Source: Pontixanthobacter aestiaquae
GTDB taxonomy: Bacteria > Pseudomonadota > Alphaproteobacteria > Sphingomonadales > Sphingomonadaceae
Direction: 5' to 3'
DNA: 64,000 nt
NCBI RefSeq assembly: GCF_009827455.1
Contig: NZ_WTYZ01000001.1
Coordinates: 2,795,685 to 2,859,684, forward strand
Made by a program: the position numbers and the translations under genes. Below, piece after piece: positions 9,163 through 57,240 of this stretch; the first letter of the stretch is position 1; the number at the start of each line of letters is the position of its first letter. A model generated the notes under the pieces. That model saw only the letters and a list, made by a program, of their open reading frames with translations. It made no database searches and had not been told where the DNA came from.

Positions 9163-12100
9163 ATGCGCACCAAGTCACTGTTTCTTTCGACCGCAGCCAT
9201 TTTTCCGGCGATCTTTGTGGCATCGCCTCTGGCGGCGCAGAGTATCACGCTTGATGCGCCGCCCGTCCGGCAGCCGCTCGATGAGAACGGCGTTGATTTA
9301 TCGACCGGTGATATCGTTGTGCCGTCATCGACAGTGGCCATCGGCGGAAGCGATGGCCTTGTTCATACAAGCGTTCGGGTGTCCGATGGTTGGCGGCACA
9401 ATTACATGCTCTCCATCGCGGTTCAGCCAGACGCGGCAGGTGATCTCTATGTTGTCCAACTGGGCGGTAGCACACGCCTGTTTAGAAAGAACGGTAGCAA
9501 TTTTGACCCGGAGGGAGCGGAGCTCGGGACGCTTACGGAAACTTCCAACGAGTTCGTCTATACTGGTCCAGGCGGTGTCGAGTACCGATTTAGCAAGGCG
9601 TTGGTTGCGAACGGTGAGAACTACTACGAGGCTGTCAATGCTGTGGGTACTCAAATAACAACACCAAACGGCTTCAAGACTAGCCTGTCTTATCGACAAG
9701 ATAGCTATCAGCTTGGTGCAATAGGCCAAATGTATACGATCCGCCTTCAGTCGGTAAATAACAACGCCAGCTATCAGCTAAAAATCGACTACGAGGCAGA
9801 AATGCTGGGCACCACAGTCACCGAAGCCGACGCTTGGTATCGGATCGAGCGTGTTACGGCGATCAACAATACCGAAGAATATTGTGATCCGGTAGCTGAC
9901 AATTGTACGCTAACAGAAGCTTGGCCGTATATTGACTATGACATTGAAGTATACGGCTCCAATGGAATCTTGTATGCGAACAATAAGGTTACCGATATCC
10001 TTGGCAGGGAGTCACAGTTTCATACGGATGGGAATAGCAGACTGGTCAAAGTCAAACGTCCTGGCGAAACCACGCCAGGCATGGAAATCGCATGGCAGAA
10101 CGACCGAGTTTCTAGCATCACTCATCAGGGCCAGTACACACGTACCTACACATGGACCGAGGCTAGCGGCGAGTTGACCTCTGTTTCCACTGACTCGCTT
10201 GGCCGTACACGAACCGTCGTCACCGACATCGATGAAGCGGTTGTTCTGAGCGACAAGGATGCGCTGAACAATACCACCAGCTACGCTTATGATAGCGAGG
10301 GTCGTGTCACTGAAGTAACCGCGCCTGAAGGCAACAAAACGCAGATCACCCGCGACGCGCGCGGGCGCGTCACCGAAGTCCGGCAGAAACCCAAAAACGG
10401 TCCGCTCGCCGATATCGTCACTACTTCAACCTATCCCGCGCTTACCAGCGGGACCACCTGCGCCAACGCCGTCACCTGCGACAGTCCGCTATCCACCACC
10501 GACCCGCGCGGTAACACCACCAATTACACGTATGATCCCGTCCATGGCGGCGTTTTGACAGTAGAGCTTCCCGCAGCGGGCACAGGCGAACCGCGTGCCA
10601 CAAGCACGTTCACCTATGCAAGCCAGACCGCCAAGATCAAAAACAGCAGCGGCAATCTGGTGCTCGCCGCTGATCCGATCACCAAGCCGGTTAGCGTTTC
10701 GCGCTGCCGCGTGGGCGCAAGCTGCGCGGGTACGGCGGATGAGCAGGTGATCGCAATCACCTATGACAATACGCAGGCGGAAAACCTTCAGCCCTATCAA
10801 GTTACCGCCAAGGCCGGTGATGGCACGCTCGCGCGGACGGTAACCACCCAATACGACCGTCTCGGCAATGTGCTGACCACGGATGGCCCGCTGGCGGGTG
10901 CGGTCGATGTGGCGCGCAATCACTACGACGATGCCGGGCAGCTTATTGGCAGTGTCTCGCCTGACCCGGACGGCGCAGGATCGCTCAAAAACCTCGCGAC
11001 GCGCATTACTTACAATGATGATGGTCAGGTTACCGTGCGCGAAAGCGGATCTGTGGCCGGACAGACAGAAGCGGATTGGGCCGGGTTCACAGTCGATACC
11101 AAAGCGGTGACCACCTATGATGAATTTGGCCGCGTCGAAACGTCGGCTCAGGTCGCGACCAGCGGGACCACGCAATATTCCATAGCGCAATATAGCTATG
11201 ATTATGCCGGGCGGCTCGAATGCACTGCGCAGCGGATGAATGCGCCAACCACCAGCACCGCACTGCCGGCGGATGCCTGTACGCCGATGACAGCGGGAAC
11301 GCATGGTGATGACCGCATAACGCGCACCTATTACGATGCCGCTGACCGCGTTACCGAGGTATGGTCCGGCGTCGGCACGGCGCTCGCCCAGCAAAGCAGC
11401 GAATATTCCTATACCAACAATGGGGCTGTTCGCTGGATGGAGGATGCGAAAGACAATCGCACGAGTTATTATCAGGATGGGTTCGACCGGAACTATCTGA
11501 TCCGCTATCCTGATCCCGCAAATCCCGGCACATCGCTGGCAACTGACCGCGAACTGGTTACATACGATGCGGCTGGCAATATCCTGTCCCATCGCAGCCG
11601 CCGTAACGAGCTGATCACTTTCACCTATGATGATTTGGGGCGCCTGACGCATAAAAACGTCCCCAATCGCGCTGGCCTTAGCACCACTCATACGCGCGAT
11701 GTCTATTATGGCTATGATCTGACCGGTGCGCTGACCTATGCCAACTTCTCCAGCCCAACTGGTGAAGGTCTAAGCTTCACCTATGATGCACTCGGTCAGC
11801 TAGTCACCGCGACTACCGATCTGGACGGGCAAAGCCGAACGCTAAGCTACCAGTATGATGACGCTGGTCGCCGTACGCGGATTACCCATCCTGACGCTGC
11901 CTATTTCACATATGACTGGGATCACGCAGGCCGCTTCAAACGGCTCAAAGCATCGACCGGCACAAGCCTGGTCACCAATGTCTTTGCTCAGAACGGCACA
12001 CTGCAACGCCGTGTACGCAGCGGAACTGCGCCGCAGGAATTCTTCTATTACGATGCGGCCAAGCGTCTCGATGAAATCTTTATCAACCATTCGGACAACA

Positions 12101-13557
12101 CCAAGGATGTGCGCACCGACTGGTCGTTTAACCCCGCCGGGCAAGTGATTGCAGAGAACATCGACAACAACCAGTTTGCAACGCACGCACTACCAACGGC
12201 CGACATCGACTACACCGCCAACGGCCTCAACCAATATACAGCCGTTGATGGCTTTACGCAGGATTATGACATTAACGGCAATCTCACCGTCAGCCGCCAA
12301 TCCGATGGCATGGGCGGTACGGACTCGACCACCTATATCTATGACACAGAGAACCGCTTGGTCAGTATCAGCGGCACCAGCAATGCAACGCTGACCTATG
12401 ACCCGTTCGGCAGGCTCTACCGCGTCACAGACGGGGTCACCAGTGACACACGGTTCCATTATGACGGCGATGCACTGGTGGGCGAATACAACGCCTCTGG
12501 CGCGCTTCTCGACCGCTATGTGCATGGGGTCAGCGCAGGCGATGATCCGCTCGTATGGTACGAGGGCAGCAGCACTGCGGTGGCGGATGCAAACTTCCTC
12601 TACACCGACCGCAGAGGCTCTGTGATGGCGGTGTTCCAGCGCGATGGCACGATCAAAGCGATCAACACCTATGACGAATACGGCGTCCCGGGACCAAGCG
12701 GCACCGCGCAAAACCTGGGCCGGTTCCGCTACACCGGGCAGACATGGATACCGGAGGCTGGCCTCTACTACTACAAAGCCCGCATGTACTCGCCCACGCT
12801 GGGCCGGTTTATGCAGACGGATCCCATTGGCTATGCCGATGGGATGAATTTGTACGCTTATGTTGGCAATGATCCAGTGAACTTTGTCGATCCGACGGGC
12901 ACGGTCGGTGAACAGGGTGTTGATCCAAATGCGCTTAACAGTGGGCCGATAATTGTCACTGCGCCTGGAAGTGGTTGCAGGGGTGGTGGCGGTATCTTAG
13001 TGTACCGTCCGGGTTGGGGCGACTACTCATGCGCTGATAGAGAAAGTATCAGTGGAGACTCGTTGTCACTGGAATTGGGGCTGTTTCAGGGTGGTGATGG
13101 AGCTGGCGGCGAGATTGTCGTCAATGGTTACACGAAATCTCGCCCTATAGATCGATTGAAGAAATCTCTGGGCGCTGACCCTTGCTCTATATTCTCAAGT
13201 GGATTGGCTAGCGAGGGCTTTGCTCCTTATCCGATTTCAACAGCGTCGTTGGCTTCATCGGTTGCGCACGCTATAGCGATGCATAATGGGAGCCGCCCAG
13301 GTAAAAGCGAATTCTCCAAAAAGTTTCTCAACCCAAAAAATTTGGCAGGAGCAATATCGGTGGCAGTGCAGGGTAATCCTATTGGAGATCTAACCGGCGC
13401 TCGATACTATACAGTGAATGTAGGTACAGAGGTTGGCTATGATGCCAAAAATTCTGGCTATACTAATTATTTAACTGTTATCGTAAGAAAGGTCGATGGA
13501 GTGGGCATCATTGGAACCGCGTTTCCAGGATGCAGCCCGATCATACTTGATCTATGA
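9163..13557 (+). CDS. RHS/YD-repeat polymorphic toxin with variable C-terminal tip
   Basis: This 1464-residue protein has a Sec signal peptide (KSLFLSTAAIFPAIFVASPLAAQ). Many YD repeats form the RHS shell (YAYDSEGRVTEV, FTYDDLGRLTHK, YQYDDAGRRTRI). The hallmark core is [20 protein letters not shown], then [18 protein letters not shown], ending at NDPVNFVDPTG near residue 1246. The last 218 residues are the variable tip. They carry IVVNG/IIVTAP motifs and then HAIAMH, SEFSKKF and IGTAFPG. I read this pattern as resembling BECR/EndoU-like ribonuclease toxins, which is inference. I prefer the ATG at 9163 to an upstream TTG because it opens the signal peptide. The stop overlaps the next gene as ATGA, typical of a toxin-immunity pair. 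Confidence 0.93.
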   Translation: MRTKSLFLSTAAIFPAIFVASPLAAQSITLDAPPVRQPLDENGVDLSTGDIVVPSSTVAIGGSDGLVHTSVRVSDGWRHNYMLSIAVQPDAAGDLYVVQLGGSTRLFRKNGSNFDPEGAELGTLTETSNEFVYTGPGGVEYRFSKALVANGENYYEAVNAVGTQITTPNGFKTSLSYRQDSYQLGAIGQMYTIRLQSVNNNASYQLKIDYEAEMLGTTVTEADAWYRIERVTAINNTEEYCDPVADNCTLTEAWPYIDYDIEVYGSNGILYANNKVTDILGRESQFHTDGNSRLVKVKRPGETTPGMEIAWQNDRVSSITHQGQYTRTYTWTEASGELTSVSTDSLGRTRTVVTDIDEAVVLSDKDALNNTTSYAYDSEGRVTEVTAPEGNKTQITRDARGRVTEVRQKPKNGPLADIVTTSTYPALTSGTTCANAVTCDSPLSTTDPRGNTTNYTYDPVHGGVLTVELPAAGTGEPRATSTFTYASQTAKIKNSSGNLVLAADPITKPVSVSRCRVGASCAGTADEQVIAITYDNTQAENLQPYQVTAKAGDGTLARTVTTQYDRLGNVLTTDGPLAGAVDVARNHYDDAGQLIGSVSPDPDGAGSLKNLATRITYNDDGQVTVRESGSVAGQTEADWAGFTVDTKAVTTYDEFGRVETSAQVATSGTTQYSIAQYSYDYAGRLECTAQRMNAPTTSTALPADACTPMTAGTHGDDRITRTYYDAADRVTEVWSGVGTALAQQSSEYSYTNNGAVRWMEDAKDNRTSYYQDGFDRNYLIRYPDPANPGTSLATDRELVTYDAAGNILSHRSRRNELITFTYDDLGRLTHKNVPNRAGLSTTHTRDVYYGYDLTGALTYANFSSPTGEGLSFTYDALGQLVTATTDLDGQSRTLSYQYDDAGRRTRITHPDAAYFTYDWDHAGRFKRLKASTGTSLVTNVFAQNGTLQRRVRSGTAPQEFFYYDAAKRLDEIFINHSDNTKDVRTDWSFNPAGQVIAENIDNNQFATHALPTADIDYTANGLNQYTAVDGFTQDYDINGNLTVSRQSDGMGGTDSTTYIYDTENRLVSISGTSNATLTYDPFGRLYRVTDGVTSDTRFHYDGDALVGEYNASGALLDRYVHGVSAGDDPLVWYEGSSTAVADANFLYTDRRGSVMAVFQRDGTIKAINTYDEYGVPGPSGTAQNLGRFRYTGQTWIPEAGLYYYKARMYSPTLGRFMQTDPIGYADGMNLYAYVGNDPVNFVDPTGTVGEQGVDPNALNSGPIIVTAPGSGCRGGGGILVYRPGWGDYSCADRESISGDSLSLELGLFQGGDGAGGEIVVNGYTKSRPIDRLKKSLGADPCSIFSSGLASEGFAPYPISTASLASSVAHAIAMHNGSRPGKSEFSKKFLNPKNLAGAISVAVQGNPIGDLTGARYYTVNVGTEVGYDAKNSGYTNYLTVIVRKVDGVGIIGTAFPGCSPIILDL
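12106..12900 (+). repeat. RHS core direct repeat, copy 1 (inside the full-length RHS gene)
   Basis: This segment, from the codons for DVRTDWSFN to DPTG, is repeated almost base for base at 14063-14857, an offset of 1957 bases. Identity is near complete over most of the length and drops in the last 60 or so bases before the tip. Such repeats let a full-length RHS gene swap its tip by homologous recombination. Confidence 0.93.
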
Positions 13558-14032: not shown

Positions 14033-15493
14033 TTGTTCACAATCGCTACAGGCACCGCCCATGATGTGCGCACCGACTGGACGTTTAACCCCGCCGGGCA
14101 AGTGATTGCAGAGAACATCGACAACAACCAGTTTGCAACGCACGCACTACCAACGGCCGACATCGACTACACCGCCAACGGCCTCAACCAATATACAGCC
14201 GTTGATGGCTTTACGCAGGATTATGACATTAACGGCAATCTCACCGTCAGCCGCCAATCCGATGGCATGGGCGGTACGGACTCGACCACCTATATCTATG
14301 ACACAGAGAACCGCTTGGTCAGTATCAGCGGCACCAGCAATGCAACGCTGACCTATGACCCGTTCGGCAGGCTCTACCGCGTCACAGACGGGGTCACCAG
14401 TGACACACGGTTCCATTATGACGGCGATGCACTGGTGGGCGAATACAACGCCTCTGGCGCGCTTCTCGACCGCTATGTGCATGGGGTCAGCGCAGGCGAT
14501 GATCCGCTCGTATGGTACGAGGGCAGCAGCACTGCGGTGGCGGATGCAAACTTCCTCTACACCGACCGCAGAGGCTCTGTGATGGCGGTGTTCCAGCGCG
14601 ATGGCACGATCAAGGCGATCAACACCTATGACGAATACGGCGTTCCGGGACCAAGCGGCACCGCGCAGAATTTGGGCCGGTTCCGCTACACCGGGCAAAC
14701 ATGGATACCGGAGGCTGGGCTCTACTATTACAAAGCCCGCATGTACTCGCCCACGCTGGGCCGGTTTATGCAGACTGATCCGATTGGCTATGCCGATGGG
14801 ATGAATATGTACGCCTATGTGGGCAATGATCCGGTGAACTTCATCGATCCAACTGGCCTAAGCGAGGACGACTGCCCACCAAACGATCAAGAATGTCGTG
14901 ATCGAGAGGGAGATCGGTACTGGGAAGTTATCGCGATACGGAAAGAACTTCAGTTACGAGAAAGGGCATACGGCGGCGTTTTCTACGGTGTCCGCATAAA
15001 CGGTCCTGGTGTATACTATCCTAGGCCTGGCTTTGAGTTGATAGTCACTACGTTGGAAGAAGTATATGGGCCAGTGGATGACTTCATTACAGACACGAAC
15101 CCATTAATACCTGGGTCTGACGGCTGCAGTATCGCTGGAAAGGCGGCTGGATCTGCAAGTGCTTTTCTAGAAGGTGTCGCGGATTTTGCAGGGTCGGGAG
15201 CCGACTTAGGACTCGGCGCGATTGTGCTAACGAGAGGCGCGGTTCCTCCGCAAGTTTATGCCGCAACGGCAATCGCTGAAGGCGTCGCTATCTTCTCCGA
15301 TTTTGCGTCCGTTGCTCTAGATGGAGCAGCTGGTAATGACACAGAAGCTGGCTTAGAGCGAGCAACGCAAAACTTAATGCCAGGACGGCAAATAGCGACA
15401 CGACTTGGAGCAGACGAAGATTCTGGCGCAGCCGCTGCTAGGGCAGCTGGCCAACAACCGAACACAGCGCCTCGACGACGGTGCAGGTTTTAA
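14033..15493 (+). CDS. Orphan RHS core-plus-tip cassette without a proper start
   Basis: The frame (486 aa from a TTG) starts abruptly inside the RHS core. It repeats the core of the preceding RHS protein through DPTG (residue 275) and then carries an unrelated tip of about 210 residues. There is no signal peptide, ATG or Shine-Dalgarno, so it is probably silent and serves as a donor that can replace the tip of the full-length gene. The tip holds a long Gly/Ala-rich hydrophobic stretch ([20 protein letters not shown] and on to about residue 420), which suggests a membrane-acting or translocation segment, and it ends in Arg-rich RRRCRF. The toxin class is unknown. Confidence 0.8.
14063..14857 (+). 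repeat. RHS core direct repeat, copy 2 (orphan cassette)
   Basis: This is the second copy of the RHS core segment at 12106-12900. It is preceded by about 55 bases after the first immunity gene. The first divergent base is at the DVRTDW(S/T)F codon, and the copies diverge again over the final codons before DPTG. Confidence 0.93.
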
Positions 15494-35645: not shown

Positions 35646-35914
35646 GGGATTCTTTGATTGGCCTCGGGCGCCGGCGGTCGCATCCGCTCCCTTTGGCTTC
35701 CGCGCTAACCGCGCGTCGGGCAGTCGCCCTCTGACTGCCGTGACCAAGGTTCAGAGCGAATGAAGATGATTGGAGTGGTTCGGTTCACGACCAGTGAACC
35801 GCAAGGCCGGAGTCAGAGCCGAAGGCGCAGACGGCCAAAGGCCACCTGCACGGCCGCCCGAGCTTGTGCGAGGTAGCCAAGGAATGCGGATGCATTCCGC
35901 CCCGCGACTGAGGG
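35646..35914. repeat. Structured intergenic element, copy A
   Basis: This element is homologous to 48806-49059. Conserved blocks are GGCCTC..GCGCCGGCG.TCGCATCC at the left, GCAAGGCCG in the middle, and CGGCCGCCCGAGCTT, then TGCGAGGTAGCCAAG and CGACTGAGGG, at the right. Hairpin 1 (35781-35801) has stem GGTTCAC/GTGAACC around loop GACCA. Hairpin 2 (35881-35898) has stem GGAATGC/GCATTCC around loop GGAT. In the other copy the stems differ by paired changes. It fills the gap between the DUF1674 stop and the P450 stop. Strand of function unknown. Confidence 0.82.
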
Positions 35915-35915
35915 T

Positions 35916-37304
35916 CTAAGATAAACTCTTAAATCTCACCTTCAGCCCGTCTTTTGGCTGAGGGATCGGCCAAGCTTTCCAGGCCGGATCATAGCCCTCT
36001 TCAATCTCGATCTGATATCGCGTCAGTATTTGCGCCATCAGAACTTTCACCTGCATGTAAGCAAAGTGCAGGCCGAGACACATATGCGCTCCGCCGCCAA
36101 ACGGCACCCATGCATATTTATGGCGCGCCTTTACCTGTTCGGGCGTGAAGCGCATCGGATCGAATTTCTCCGGCTCCGGCCAGTGTTCTTCCATATGATG
36201 CACATATTGCGCGTTAATCCCGACATGGGTGCCCGCCGGAATTTTATATCCGCCAAACTCGAACTCGCGCAACGCACGACGCGGAGTGGAAGGCACCGGC
36301 GGGATCATCCGCAGCGCTTCCTTGAACGCCATCTCGGTCAGTTCCAGCTTGCCCAGATCATCATAGCCAAGGTCGCTTGCGCCGCCGGTTATCGCGAGGA
36401 TCTCAGCGCGCAGCTTTTCTTGCCATTCGGGGTTTTTCGCCAACAGATAGATCAGTGACGTGGCGCTGGATGTGATCGTGTCATGTGCCGCCATCATCAG
36501 GAAATTCATGTGATCGACGACTTCATCGACCGGCAGCAGCGAGCCGTCCTCGCGCTCCGCAGTCGCAAACTGGCTGAACATATCCTGCCCGCCGCCCTCT
36601 TTGCGGCGGCGATGCGTTTCCTTGGTGAAATAATCGACCAGAAACTCGCGTCCCTTCACGCCTTTGCGCATCAGCGTGAATGGTAGCGGATGACGGATCG
36701 GCGCGACCGAGGCCTGCACCATATAGACAAAGGCTTCGTTGATCTTATCGGCTTCGGGTCCCCACTCGATCCCGATAAAACTGTCCGCGGCCAGATCGAG
36801 CGTTAGCTTCTTGATCGCGGGATAGAACAGCATTTGATCGCCGCCCCAATCCTTCACTGCATCAGAGATTCCGCGATTAAGGCTGCCCGCATAATGCCGC
36901 ATCGGCCCCGGCTTGAACGCAATCGACAATGCCTTGCGGTCGGCCCGGTGATGGTCGAAATCCATCAGCATCAACCCGCGCGGGAACAATTGGTCGAGGA
37001 TCGGACCCCAGCCTTGCTCCGATGAAAACAACTTCTGGCGGTCGAACAGAACCAATTCGTTCGCATCTGCACCTACAAGAGCCACGACCCAGCCGCCAAA
37101 GGCCTTATTGCGGTATACCGTGCCGTACTTCTCAACCATATCCTTGGTAAAACCGTGCGGATCAGCCAGCATTTTGAAGGTGTTGCCGACAATCGGATAG
37201 CCGCCTTCGCCCGGAATATGCGCCAAGTCGGCAGGCTCGGGATTACCCTCCGTCCAATGGGTAAGAGTAGTTTCAGCGGTTTGATCAGCAGCAAGTGTGG
37301 CCAT
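35916..37304 (-). CDS. Cytochrome P450
   Basis: This soluble bacterial P450 has 462 aa and no membrane anchor. Landmarks are the I-helix MAAHDTITSSATSLIYLL, the K-helix ExxR in FKEALRMIPPVPSTPRRALR, and the haem-binding loop WVPFGGGAHMCLGLHFAYMQ with the axial Cys. The N-terminal proline-rich region (IPGEGGYPIVGNTFKMLADP) is also typical. The substrate is unknown; the size and the FGGGAHMCLG loop recall CYP51/CYP120-like or sphingomonad terpenoid/carotenoid oxidases, a loose comparison. It stands alone, downstream of nothing obviously related, with no ferredoxin partner nearby. Confidence 0.94.
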   Translation of the reverse strand: MATLAADQTAETTLTHWTEGNPEPADLAHIPGEGGYPIVGNTFKMLADPHGFTKDMVEKYGTVYRNKAFGGWVVALVGADANELVLFDRQKLFSSEQGWGPILDQLFPRGLMLMDFDHHRADRKALSIAFKPGPMRHYAGSLNRGISDAVKDWGGDQMLFYPAIKKLTLDLAADSFIGIEWGPEADKINEAFVYMVQASVAPIRHPLPFTLMRKGVKGREFLVDYFTKETHRRRKEGGGQDMFSQFATAEREDGSLLPVDEVVDHMNFLMMAAHDTITSSATSLIYLLAKNPEWQEKLRAEILAITGGASDLGYDDLGKLELTEMAFKEALRMIPPVPSTPRRALREFEFGGYKIPAGTHVGINAQYVHHMEEHWPEPEKFDPMRFTPEQVKARHKYAWVPFGGGAHMCLGLHFAYMQVKVLMAQILTRYQIEIEEGYDPAWKAWPIPQPKDGLKVRFKSLS

Positions 37305-48805: not shown

Positions 48806-49059
48806 GGGGATTTTTTGTTTGGCCTCAAGCGCCGGCGCTCGCATCCGCTCACTTGGCTATCCTCGCTTTCGCTCCCTTACGGTCGCTCCGCTGCGGGCGG
48901 GCCGCTTGGCCCTATGGCTGCCGCGACCAAGATCGTGCACTATACTGATCGCTTGAAATGGTCCGGTCCGCGACTAGCGGACCGCAAGGCCGACCGGCCG
49001 CCCGAGCTTATGCGAGGTAGCCAAGCGGCGCGGATGCGCCGCGCCCGGCGACTGAGGGG
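48806..49059. repeat. Structured intergenic element, copy B
   Basis: This is the second copy of the element at 35646-35914, in the same orientation. Hairpin 1 (48964-48984) has stem GGTCCGC/GCGGACC around loop GACTA. Hairpin 2 (49025-49042) has stem GCGGCGC/GCGCCGC around loop GGAT. The blocks GGCCTC, GCGCCGGCG, GCATCCGCTC, CGGCCGCCCGAGCTT, GCGAGGTAGCCAAG and CGACTGAGGG match copy A. It fills the gap of about 300 bases between msrB and the GST gene; I see no protein gene in it. Confidence 0.82.
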
Positions 49060-49086
49060 CTTATCGCCAGATCAGCTCAAAACACA

Positions 49087-57124: not shown

Positions 57125-57138
57125 CACAAAAAGAACGG

Positions 57139-57210
57139 TGCTTCGACAAGCTCAGCACGAACGGATTTAGAATGTCGCTCCTTAACCGTTCACCCTGAGC
57201 TTGTCGAAGG
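57139..57210. repeat. Inverted pair of GAGCTTGTCGAAG-type repeats
   Basis: The left unit (57139-57164, TGCTTCGACAAGCTCAGCAC, then GAACGG) and the right unit (57185-57210, CCGTTCACCCTGAGCTTGTC, then GAAGG) are inverted copies with three mismatches. The motif is a widespread intergenic repeat. It occupies the divergent promoter region of metX and hisC. Confidence 0.85.
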
Positions 57211-57240
57211 GTCGTATTTGTTTATGAGCCAATAGCTGTA

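Follow-up and report, generated by a model that had tools for sequence, protein, structure and literature searches.

A Probable REP/BIME-like System of Five-Hairpin Repeats in Sphingomonadales, with a Terminase Small Subunit-like Protein as Candidate Partner

The window analyzed here, a stretch of 64,000 nt from the genome of Pontixanthobacter aestiaquae, holds two intergenic copies of an element that is a dispersed repeat and not a single non-coding RNA gene. We consider it probable (about 0.6) that this element belongs to a structured repeat system of the REP/BIME (REPIN) type, with a protein resembling the small subunit of phage terminases (TerS) as its candidate partner.

Results

Two Gaps in the Window Hold the Same Composite Element

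The first-pass annotation had described one element with covarying hairpins in two gaps. Both occurrences were recovered on re-reading, i.e., copy A at 35646..35914 (from sequence, repeat search and sister-genome comparison) and copy B at 48807..49061 (from sequence, repeat search and site comparison), each a composite given without strand. The stem changes were also as described. The first stem is GGTTCAC/GTGAACC in copy A versus GGTCCGC/GCGGACC in copy B, with loops GACCA and GACTA, and differs at two pairs; the second, with the loop GGAT, is GGAATGC/GCATTCC versus GCGGCGC/GCGCCGC and differs at four. All six differences preserve pairing. The conserved flanking blocks correspond to three direct-repeat families (D5, D6 and D8; 80-84% identity in a repeat search of the window). 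Beyond that description we found three further hairpins (GGCC-GACC-GGCC, CCGAGC-TTRT-GCGAGG with tandem G.A, and CCC-...-GGG), inverted left halves (35646 to ~35750 and 48807 to ~48937) and a high copy number.

The repeating unit, which is represented by 96 positions in our covariance model R1, is about 100 nt long and consists of five consecutive hairpins. Reading from the 5' end, these are H1 (8 bp, loop GACYA), the spacer CAA, H2 (4 bp, loop GACC), H3 (CCGAGC-TTAT-GCGAGG), the spacer AGCCAA, H4 (up to 7 bp, loop GGAT) and H5 (CCC-...-GGG), followed by an A-rich 3' tail with the consensus end CTAAACAAAAGACTC; many copies continue as far as GACTC (both by eye).

In copy A the hairpins H1 (CGGTTCAC GACCA GTGAACCG, 35781..35801), H3 (CCGAGC TTGT GCGAGG with tandem G.A mismatches in a C-G/G-C frame, 35858..35873) and H4 (GGAATGC GGAT GCATTCC, 35881..35898) lie on the + strand, H1 and H4 being assigned from both sequence and covariation. 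About 45 extra nt within the H2 block are missing from copy B and from the orthologue in genome G004 (by eye). A short reading frame on the + strand ends in TGA directly before the element, whose A-rich right tail reaches to ~35931 and into the 3' end of an ORF on the - strand at 35916-37304 (both by eye); we take this ORF to be P450-like. The right unit of copy B (48963..49058, + strand, 96 nt) is a full R1 match of 112.9 bits (G000:C1:2844647-2844742, where G000 is the genome of the window), itself one of the 32 sequences used to build R1, and its fold is only modestly better than shuffles (z -1.66). All five hairpins are on the + strand, i.e., H1 (CGGTCCGC GACTA GCGGACCG, 48964..48984), H2 (GGCC GACC GGCC, 48988..48999; GCGC/GCGC or GGGC/GCCC in other copies), H3 (CCGAGC TTAT GCGAGG with tandem G.A, 49002..49017), H4 (GCGGCGC GGAT GCGCCGC, 49025..49042) and H5 (CCC GGCGACTGA GGG, forming the unit's outer end, 49044..49058).

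Each window copy thus combines a unit with a divergent one placed head-to-head, the left halves being recognized by shared sequence of family D6 on the - strand at 35646..35750 (outer end TTTGATTGGCCTC) and 48807..48937 (outer end TTTGTTTGGCCTCAAGCGCCGG). Both left halves are absent from the R1 matches and fold no better than shuffles (z -0.92 in copy A, +0.50 in copy B), and we reject them as folding units. At 11 other places in the same genome R1 detects the inverted partner directly, and there are further copies in which the left half is too divergent for the model.

Two other repeats were seen in the window. A 300-nt direct repeat (12096-12395 and 14053-14352, 1957 nt apart) is 98% identical, and an inverted repeat with TTCGACAAGCTCAGCACGAACGG at 57128-57222, to which strings in L066, L182 and L208 are similar by eye, looks like a separate short dispersed repeat.

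The Unit Is Dispersed through the Genome and the Order

A blastn search started from the right part of copy A found 33 places in G000, and R1 gave 41 matches there at E<=0.01, a count that may be a lower bound as 150 of 1810 first-look candidates were scored. Given these numbers, the resemblance between the two gaps is not due to chance. R1 is based on alignment A1, which contains 32 units chosen from 40 trimmed units, eight being left out. The copies are dispersed and, by approximate ORF calls, intergenic; gene context judged by ORF length was too noisy for counting orientations. Units occur alone, in 100-nt tandems (G018) or as head-to-head inverted pairs, and 22 of the 41 matches form 11 head-to-head neighbor pairs, the only adjacent arrangement among them.

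The search of related genomes that the annotation had proposed, using a covariance model, gave matches in 41 of 147 genomes of the order. By blastn, units were present in 25 of 60 genomes (G000 is counted in both figures). Among 150 genomes of the phylum there were units in five, four of them from the same family (G000 included) and one from another family of the class. A search for the exact core pattern returned 99 stretches, 80 of which were fetched; they came from Pontixanthobacter, Qipengyuania, Croceicoccus, Erythrobacter, Sphingomonas, Rhizorhabdus, Sphingosinicella and others, as well as from some metagenome-assembled genomes labelled Rhodospirillaceae or Alphaproteobacteria. No phage record matched at E<=1e-5, and eight of 72,556 plasmid records did match (seven Sphingobium, one Niveispirillum), so the repeat can sit on large plasmids without being typical of them; a phage or plasmid element was rejected on these counts.

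Several variants were noted in passing. Weak unit matches in G193 (L131, L135), from another family of the class, may be due to chance or transfer. A unit variant in G058 (L067, L068) lies between the 23S and 5S rRNA genes (seen for L067); blastn found it at four places, and the two examined look near-identical. In G015 (L062, L064, L065), a genome lacking any TerS-like match at E<=1e-10, a unit subtype with the third hairpin GCGCCGCAGGCGC forms clusters in which a CGTCATGCCGGACTTGATCCGGCAT repeat is interspersed.

Pairing Is Conserved in 108 Distinct Sequences and One Strand Is Probably Favored

In alignment A1, double changes occur at 16 of the 26 pairs, with a covariation score of 0.300 as against 0.099 in shuffles and at most 0.064 when slid. 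In a larger set (117 matches, 108 distinct rows), whose alignment, being fitted to the model, is biased in its favor, 94.1% of 2680 cells were paired, 21 of 26 pairs had double changes, and the score was 0.510 (0.122 shuffled, at most 0.050 slid). Selection on the structure, or at least its maintenance, which had been proposed from two copies, is therefore supported by 108 distinct sequences.

The stem of H3 has an unusual composition in these 108 rows. GA stands opposite GA in 60 and GCA opposite GA in 12, Watson-Crick pairs are found in 14 (CC/GG in six, CG/CG in four, GC/GC in four), and in the last 22 the combination is a different one or missing. The GA/GA combination also occurs 11 times in H1 (AG/AG once) and five times in H4. 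The mirror pattern, TC opposite TC, which would be expected if the other strand folded, was found in none of the 108 rows. G-T cells (65) exceeded A-C cells (40), a raw count, without a formal test, over rows that are related. Single-sequence DNA folding energies did not separate the strands, the complement folding about as well, and we rejected them as a strand test. The strand assignment rests on the G.A and G-T patterns for that reason, and the recurrence of tandem G.A on one strand would point to one folded strand, either RNA or single-stranded DNA. In a 5'-CGAG-3' frame, sheared G.A pairs in tandem are stable whether the strand is RNA or DNA, so that the data indicate the strand and not the nucleic acid.

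Hairpin-templated correction together with gene conversion among the copies could also produce apparent covariation if the fold were not under selection, and the exchange of whole hairpins at the same site in sister species (by eye) fits such a process. However, templated correction would yield perfect palindromes, whereas 60 of the 108 H3 stems keep tandem G.A mismatches, all on the same strand, 14 others are Watson-Crick paired, and the loops remain conserved. We regard correction without selection as very improbable.

Comparison with Known RNA Families

The Rfam comparison that had been suggested gave no match at or above threshold on either window copy or in three other strong units. At gathering scores the only match in the whole window was to a tRNA, and in 14 longer unit sources the matches at or above gathering were to rRNA and tRNA beside the units. 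Below threshold, the twister-sister ribozyme (RF02681) aligned end to end with the right unit of copy B (17.7 bits), the two having CCGCAAGGCCGAC in common. That the units are degenerate twister-sister ribozymes is nevertheless extremely improbable, and we rejected it. The gathering score is 34, and neither copy A nor any of the three other strong units, searched over stretches just as short, matched RF02681. RF02681 was also not listed for the 14 longer sources, a result that does not serve as a control, since in a search of that size 17.7 bits would miss the E limit. The P1/P2 pairs around GCAAG did not covary beyond shuffles (140 of 500 shuffles reached the percentage paired and 211 of 500 the score), whereas the competing local hairpin did (0 of 500). 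The likeness is therefore limited to a short common sequence and a weak match in one unit, and differs from membership of the family in its sub-threshold score, its failure to recur in other units and its unsupported pairing.

A broader alternative is that the element is a functional RNA or 3'-UTR element, e.g., a small RNA or mRNA stabilizer, that spread by duplication and was kept for its RNA function. The strong covariation and the excess of G-T over A-C cells would suit this, as would several copies lying within a few nt of a stop codon (from a rough ORF call). Against it are the failure to match any Rfam family at threshold and the finding, described below, that orthologous sites hold a different element, an inverted one or none. 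In addition, the two folding strands of a composite are on opposite DNA strands, so that one transcript holds only one of them. We think a functional RNA quite improbable. An intrinsic terminator was rejected by eye, the A-rich tail being on the wrong side for a U-run. Of the two readings offered at first, i.e., a non-coding RNA or a structured mobile element, the second is thus supported, and the first finds no backing in Rfam or in the opposed folding strands.

Occupied, Empty and Exchanged Sites in Sister Genomes

The copy A site is filled in G000 and G004 and empty in G007, G005, G003, G002 and G006, G004 and G007 being of the same genus as G000; G001 gave no flank match. At the copy B site, an oppositely oriented pair next to a truncated end is found in G004, and elements with remnants in G007 and G005. 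G001 and G006 show no more than a short GCCTCAAGC string, and no element is seen in G002 or G003 (all by eye). Ten further copies from G000 were compared, of which L007 lacked a usable flank match. Among the nine left, eight sites are filled in G004 and one (L002) is empty; in G007 six are filled, L028 is reduced to a remnant, and for two a single flank was found. By eye, the occupant of a shared site is inverted at L025 (in both species) and L019 (in G007), hairpins have been exchanged at L011 and L014, and L005 is nearly identical in G000 and G004.

Because sites are empty, inverted or module-swapped in sister species, the repeat moves or is recurrently replaced, although the eight of nine sites already filled in G004 indicate that many insertions are old, which counts against this. 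Since whole hairpins appear to be swapped, the six changes that distinguish copy A from copy B do not have to represent as many independent compensatory mutations, and they may reflect module exchange as well as compensation. Simple vertical covariation between the two copies is weakened to that extent.

In the flanks of L009, L015, L028 and L158, solo element ends of ~25-40 nt (e.g., TTTGTTTTAGCCCCTCAGTCGCCGG) directly adjoin full elements (by eye), and look as if one end remained or only the 3' end was copied.

Mobility could also be that of a MITE, i.e., a non-autonomous DNA transposon with terminal inverted repeats (GAGTCTTTTGTTTAGYC...) that is moved by an ordinary transposase, the TerS-like gene described below being a passenger or preferred neighbor. 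The outer ends of the composites are indeed inverted repeats, truncated solo ends lie beside full copies (by eye), and a TerS locus in G003 has units at a non-syntenic place. However, single and tandem units without a second end exist, no transposase is prominent among the recurrent neighboring ORFs, and no target-site duplication could be resolved in the diverged flanks of the compared sites. The one-sided G.A structure and deep covariation would also be unexpected for a plain MITE, and we consider it unlikely that the element is one.

A TerS-like Gene Family Lies beside the Units

A pair of units in G000 (at 2186553, - strand, and 2187668, + strand) encloses a gene for a 274-residue protein (G000:C1:2186817-2187638). 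The protein had nothing above cut-offs in Pfam or NCBIfam and no match at E<=1 in a sequence search of the PDB. In PHROGs, three members of its family matched phrog_4044, terminase small subunit (E = 1.3e-21, 5.7e-21 and 1.8e-25). The predicted structure is of moderate quality (pLDDT 74, pTM 0.40) and matched 17 viral predicted structures at E<=0.001, of which seven are named, five of these as small terminases; matches to PDB structures were weak (best E 0.17), although small terminases took the first three places. The candidate partner gene thus shows homology to terminase small subunits both by sequence and by predicted fold.

The family shares with the terminase small subunits of phages and gene transfer agents a helix-turn-helix, PHROG 4044 and the predicted fold, and differs in its long charged C-terminal part and in its dispersed paralogues, many of which adjoin repeats. 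There were 2021 homologues at E<=1e-8; the named ones among 120 of these are called hypothetical or uncharacterized, one also "helix-turn-helix domain-containing". TerS-like matches at E<=1e-10 occur in 72 of 98 genomes. A motif near TTTTCCTAC...AATCTGC, perhaps a promoter or operator, is found a short distance upstream of many TerS-like genes, whether or not these have units (L181-L194, L206-L210; by eye).

TerS-like genes are found beside units far more often than expected by chance. Among 94 loci chosen solely for holding a unit (~85 distinct after nine overlaps were removed), 12, in 12 different genomes, carry a TerS-like gene at E<=1e-3, the weakest match being 2.4e-37; the chance expectation is well under one, estimated from the few TerS genes per 3-Mb genome. 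The same is true of 21 of the 80 named core-pattern loci, some of which share genomes with the 94-locus set. In the 80 loci, TerS-like genes have a density of 0.12 per kb within 1 kb of a unit and 0.024 at 1-2 kb, and there were none in 348 kb at 2-8 kb from units. When neighboring ORFs were clustered, the TerS-like family was the largest in both sets, with six loci in the first (next five and four, the cluster of five being, by eye, the repeat read out of frame) and ten in the second (next three).

The association is incomplete in both directions, which counts against a strict partnership. Of 22 TerS-like genes within the genus, half (11) are accompanied by a unit at E<=0.01 in the stretch retrieved and the other 11 are not, four of the five in G000 being among the latter, and two of the 41 unit matches in G000 flank a TerS-like gene. 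When the best TerS locus of each of 30 genomes (out of the 72 with a match) was examined, six had an R1 match at E<=0.01, a figure that is partly low because other unit subtypes (L186, L181) escape R1. Four genomes, i.e., G002 (77% complete), G015, G018 and G058, have units and no TerS-like match at E<=1e-10. Across 60 common genomes, units are present in 12 of 12 with a TerS match below 1e-50 versus 13 of 48 others, a comparison confounded by kinship.

The gaps between gene and unit range from 50 to 1562 nt for 22 TerS-like ORF hits (domains of one ORF merged), and in 20 of these the unit is upstream of the gene. That position would suit a TerS-like protein that is a mere regulator, adjacent units being operators or leader structures for its own gene and dispersed units by-products. 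However, the tail of the unit points away from the gene in 15 of the 20, i.e., the unit reads away from it, and in G000 the gene is flanked by so few of the unit matches that such a regulatory role has, in our judgment, little probability.

Discussion

Among known systems, the repeat most resembles REP and BIME elements. REP, BIME and REPIN elements with their RAYT (TnpA-REP) genes, also termed REPtrons, are dispersed intergenic structured repeats with inverted pairing, modular mosaics and irregular stem pairs, and the gene family is flanked by repeats (PMC2817692, PMC8266576). The present repeat has all of these features, the inverted palindromic pairs being represented by the 11 head-to-head pairs in G000. 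It differs in that the unit is ~100 nt long and has five hairpins, where REPs have one in 20-50 nt, in having tens of copies instead of hundreds, and in that the associated gene is TerS-like. The unit is not a single palindrome of 20-50 nt with a GTAG (or CGTC) tag; GTAG is present in 11 of 32 A1 units (directly after H3 in ten, both window copies included) and CGTC in five of 32, neither being conserved. The CGTC-tagged REPs of Alphaproteobacteria, including S. chlorophenolicum and S. wittichii, are palindromic repeats from the same bacterial class (PMC3733652); they are 20-40 bp long and carry the tag, the unit here being longer and multi-hairpin. Erythrobacter cryptus appears in the RepRanger table of REP counts (PMC12306157). 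Titles and abstracts contained no recognizable description of the present repeat, subscription papers lying mostly outside the scope of that search.

The Y1 (RAYT) family PF01797 had no match in G000, and five of 14 control genomes were positive; there is accordingly no cognate RAYT flanked by repeats in this genome, and a RAYT-driven REP (Y1/HUH) was rejected. A reverse-transcriptase retro-element, which the 3'-end-only fragments (by eye) had suggested, was rejected likewise, as PF00078 had no match in G000 (three of 14 controls positive). Because neither enzyme was found, we propose that it is the TerS-like protein that recognizes the folded strand. One folded single strand would be the form recognized, with the TerS-like protein as the recognition partner, as RAYT is for REPs. 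The protein would act with some nuclease or replication step, and the repeat would spread via a single-stranded intermediate into tolerant intergenic sites. The TerS-like protein may in this way mobilize the repeat. We know of no nuclease in TerS proteins, so that the moving activity is missing from the scheme, which counts against it. The more specific proposal, that a domesticated phage TerS-like protein is the sequence- and structure-specific agent that recognizes five-hairpin single strands and spreads them through Sphingomonadales, as a REP system that evolved independently of HUH transposases, is put forward as tentative.

REP-like elements rank with the most common repeats of bacteria, and to our knowledge those REP systems that are tied to a protein use HUH (RAYT) enzymes. 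For annotation, gaps such as the two described here should be read as repeats and not as non-coding RNA genes. If the proposal is correct, a repeat of different build, together with a virus-derived packaging protein, would represent a second, independent solution, and a large family of unnamed proteins would acquire a role. The protein and the folded strand offer a pair with which this can be tested.
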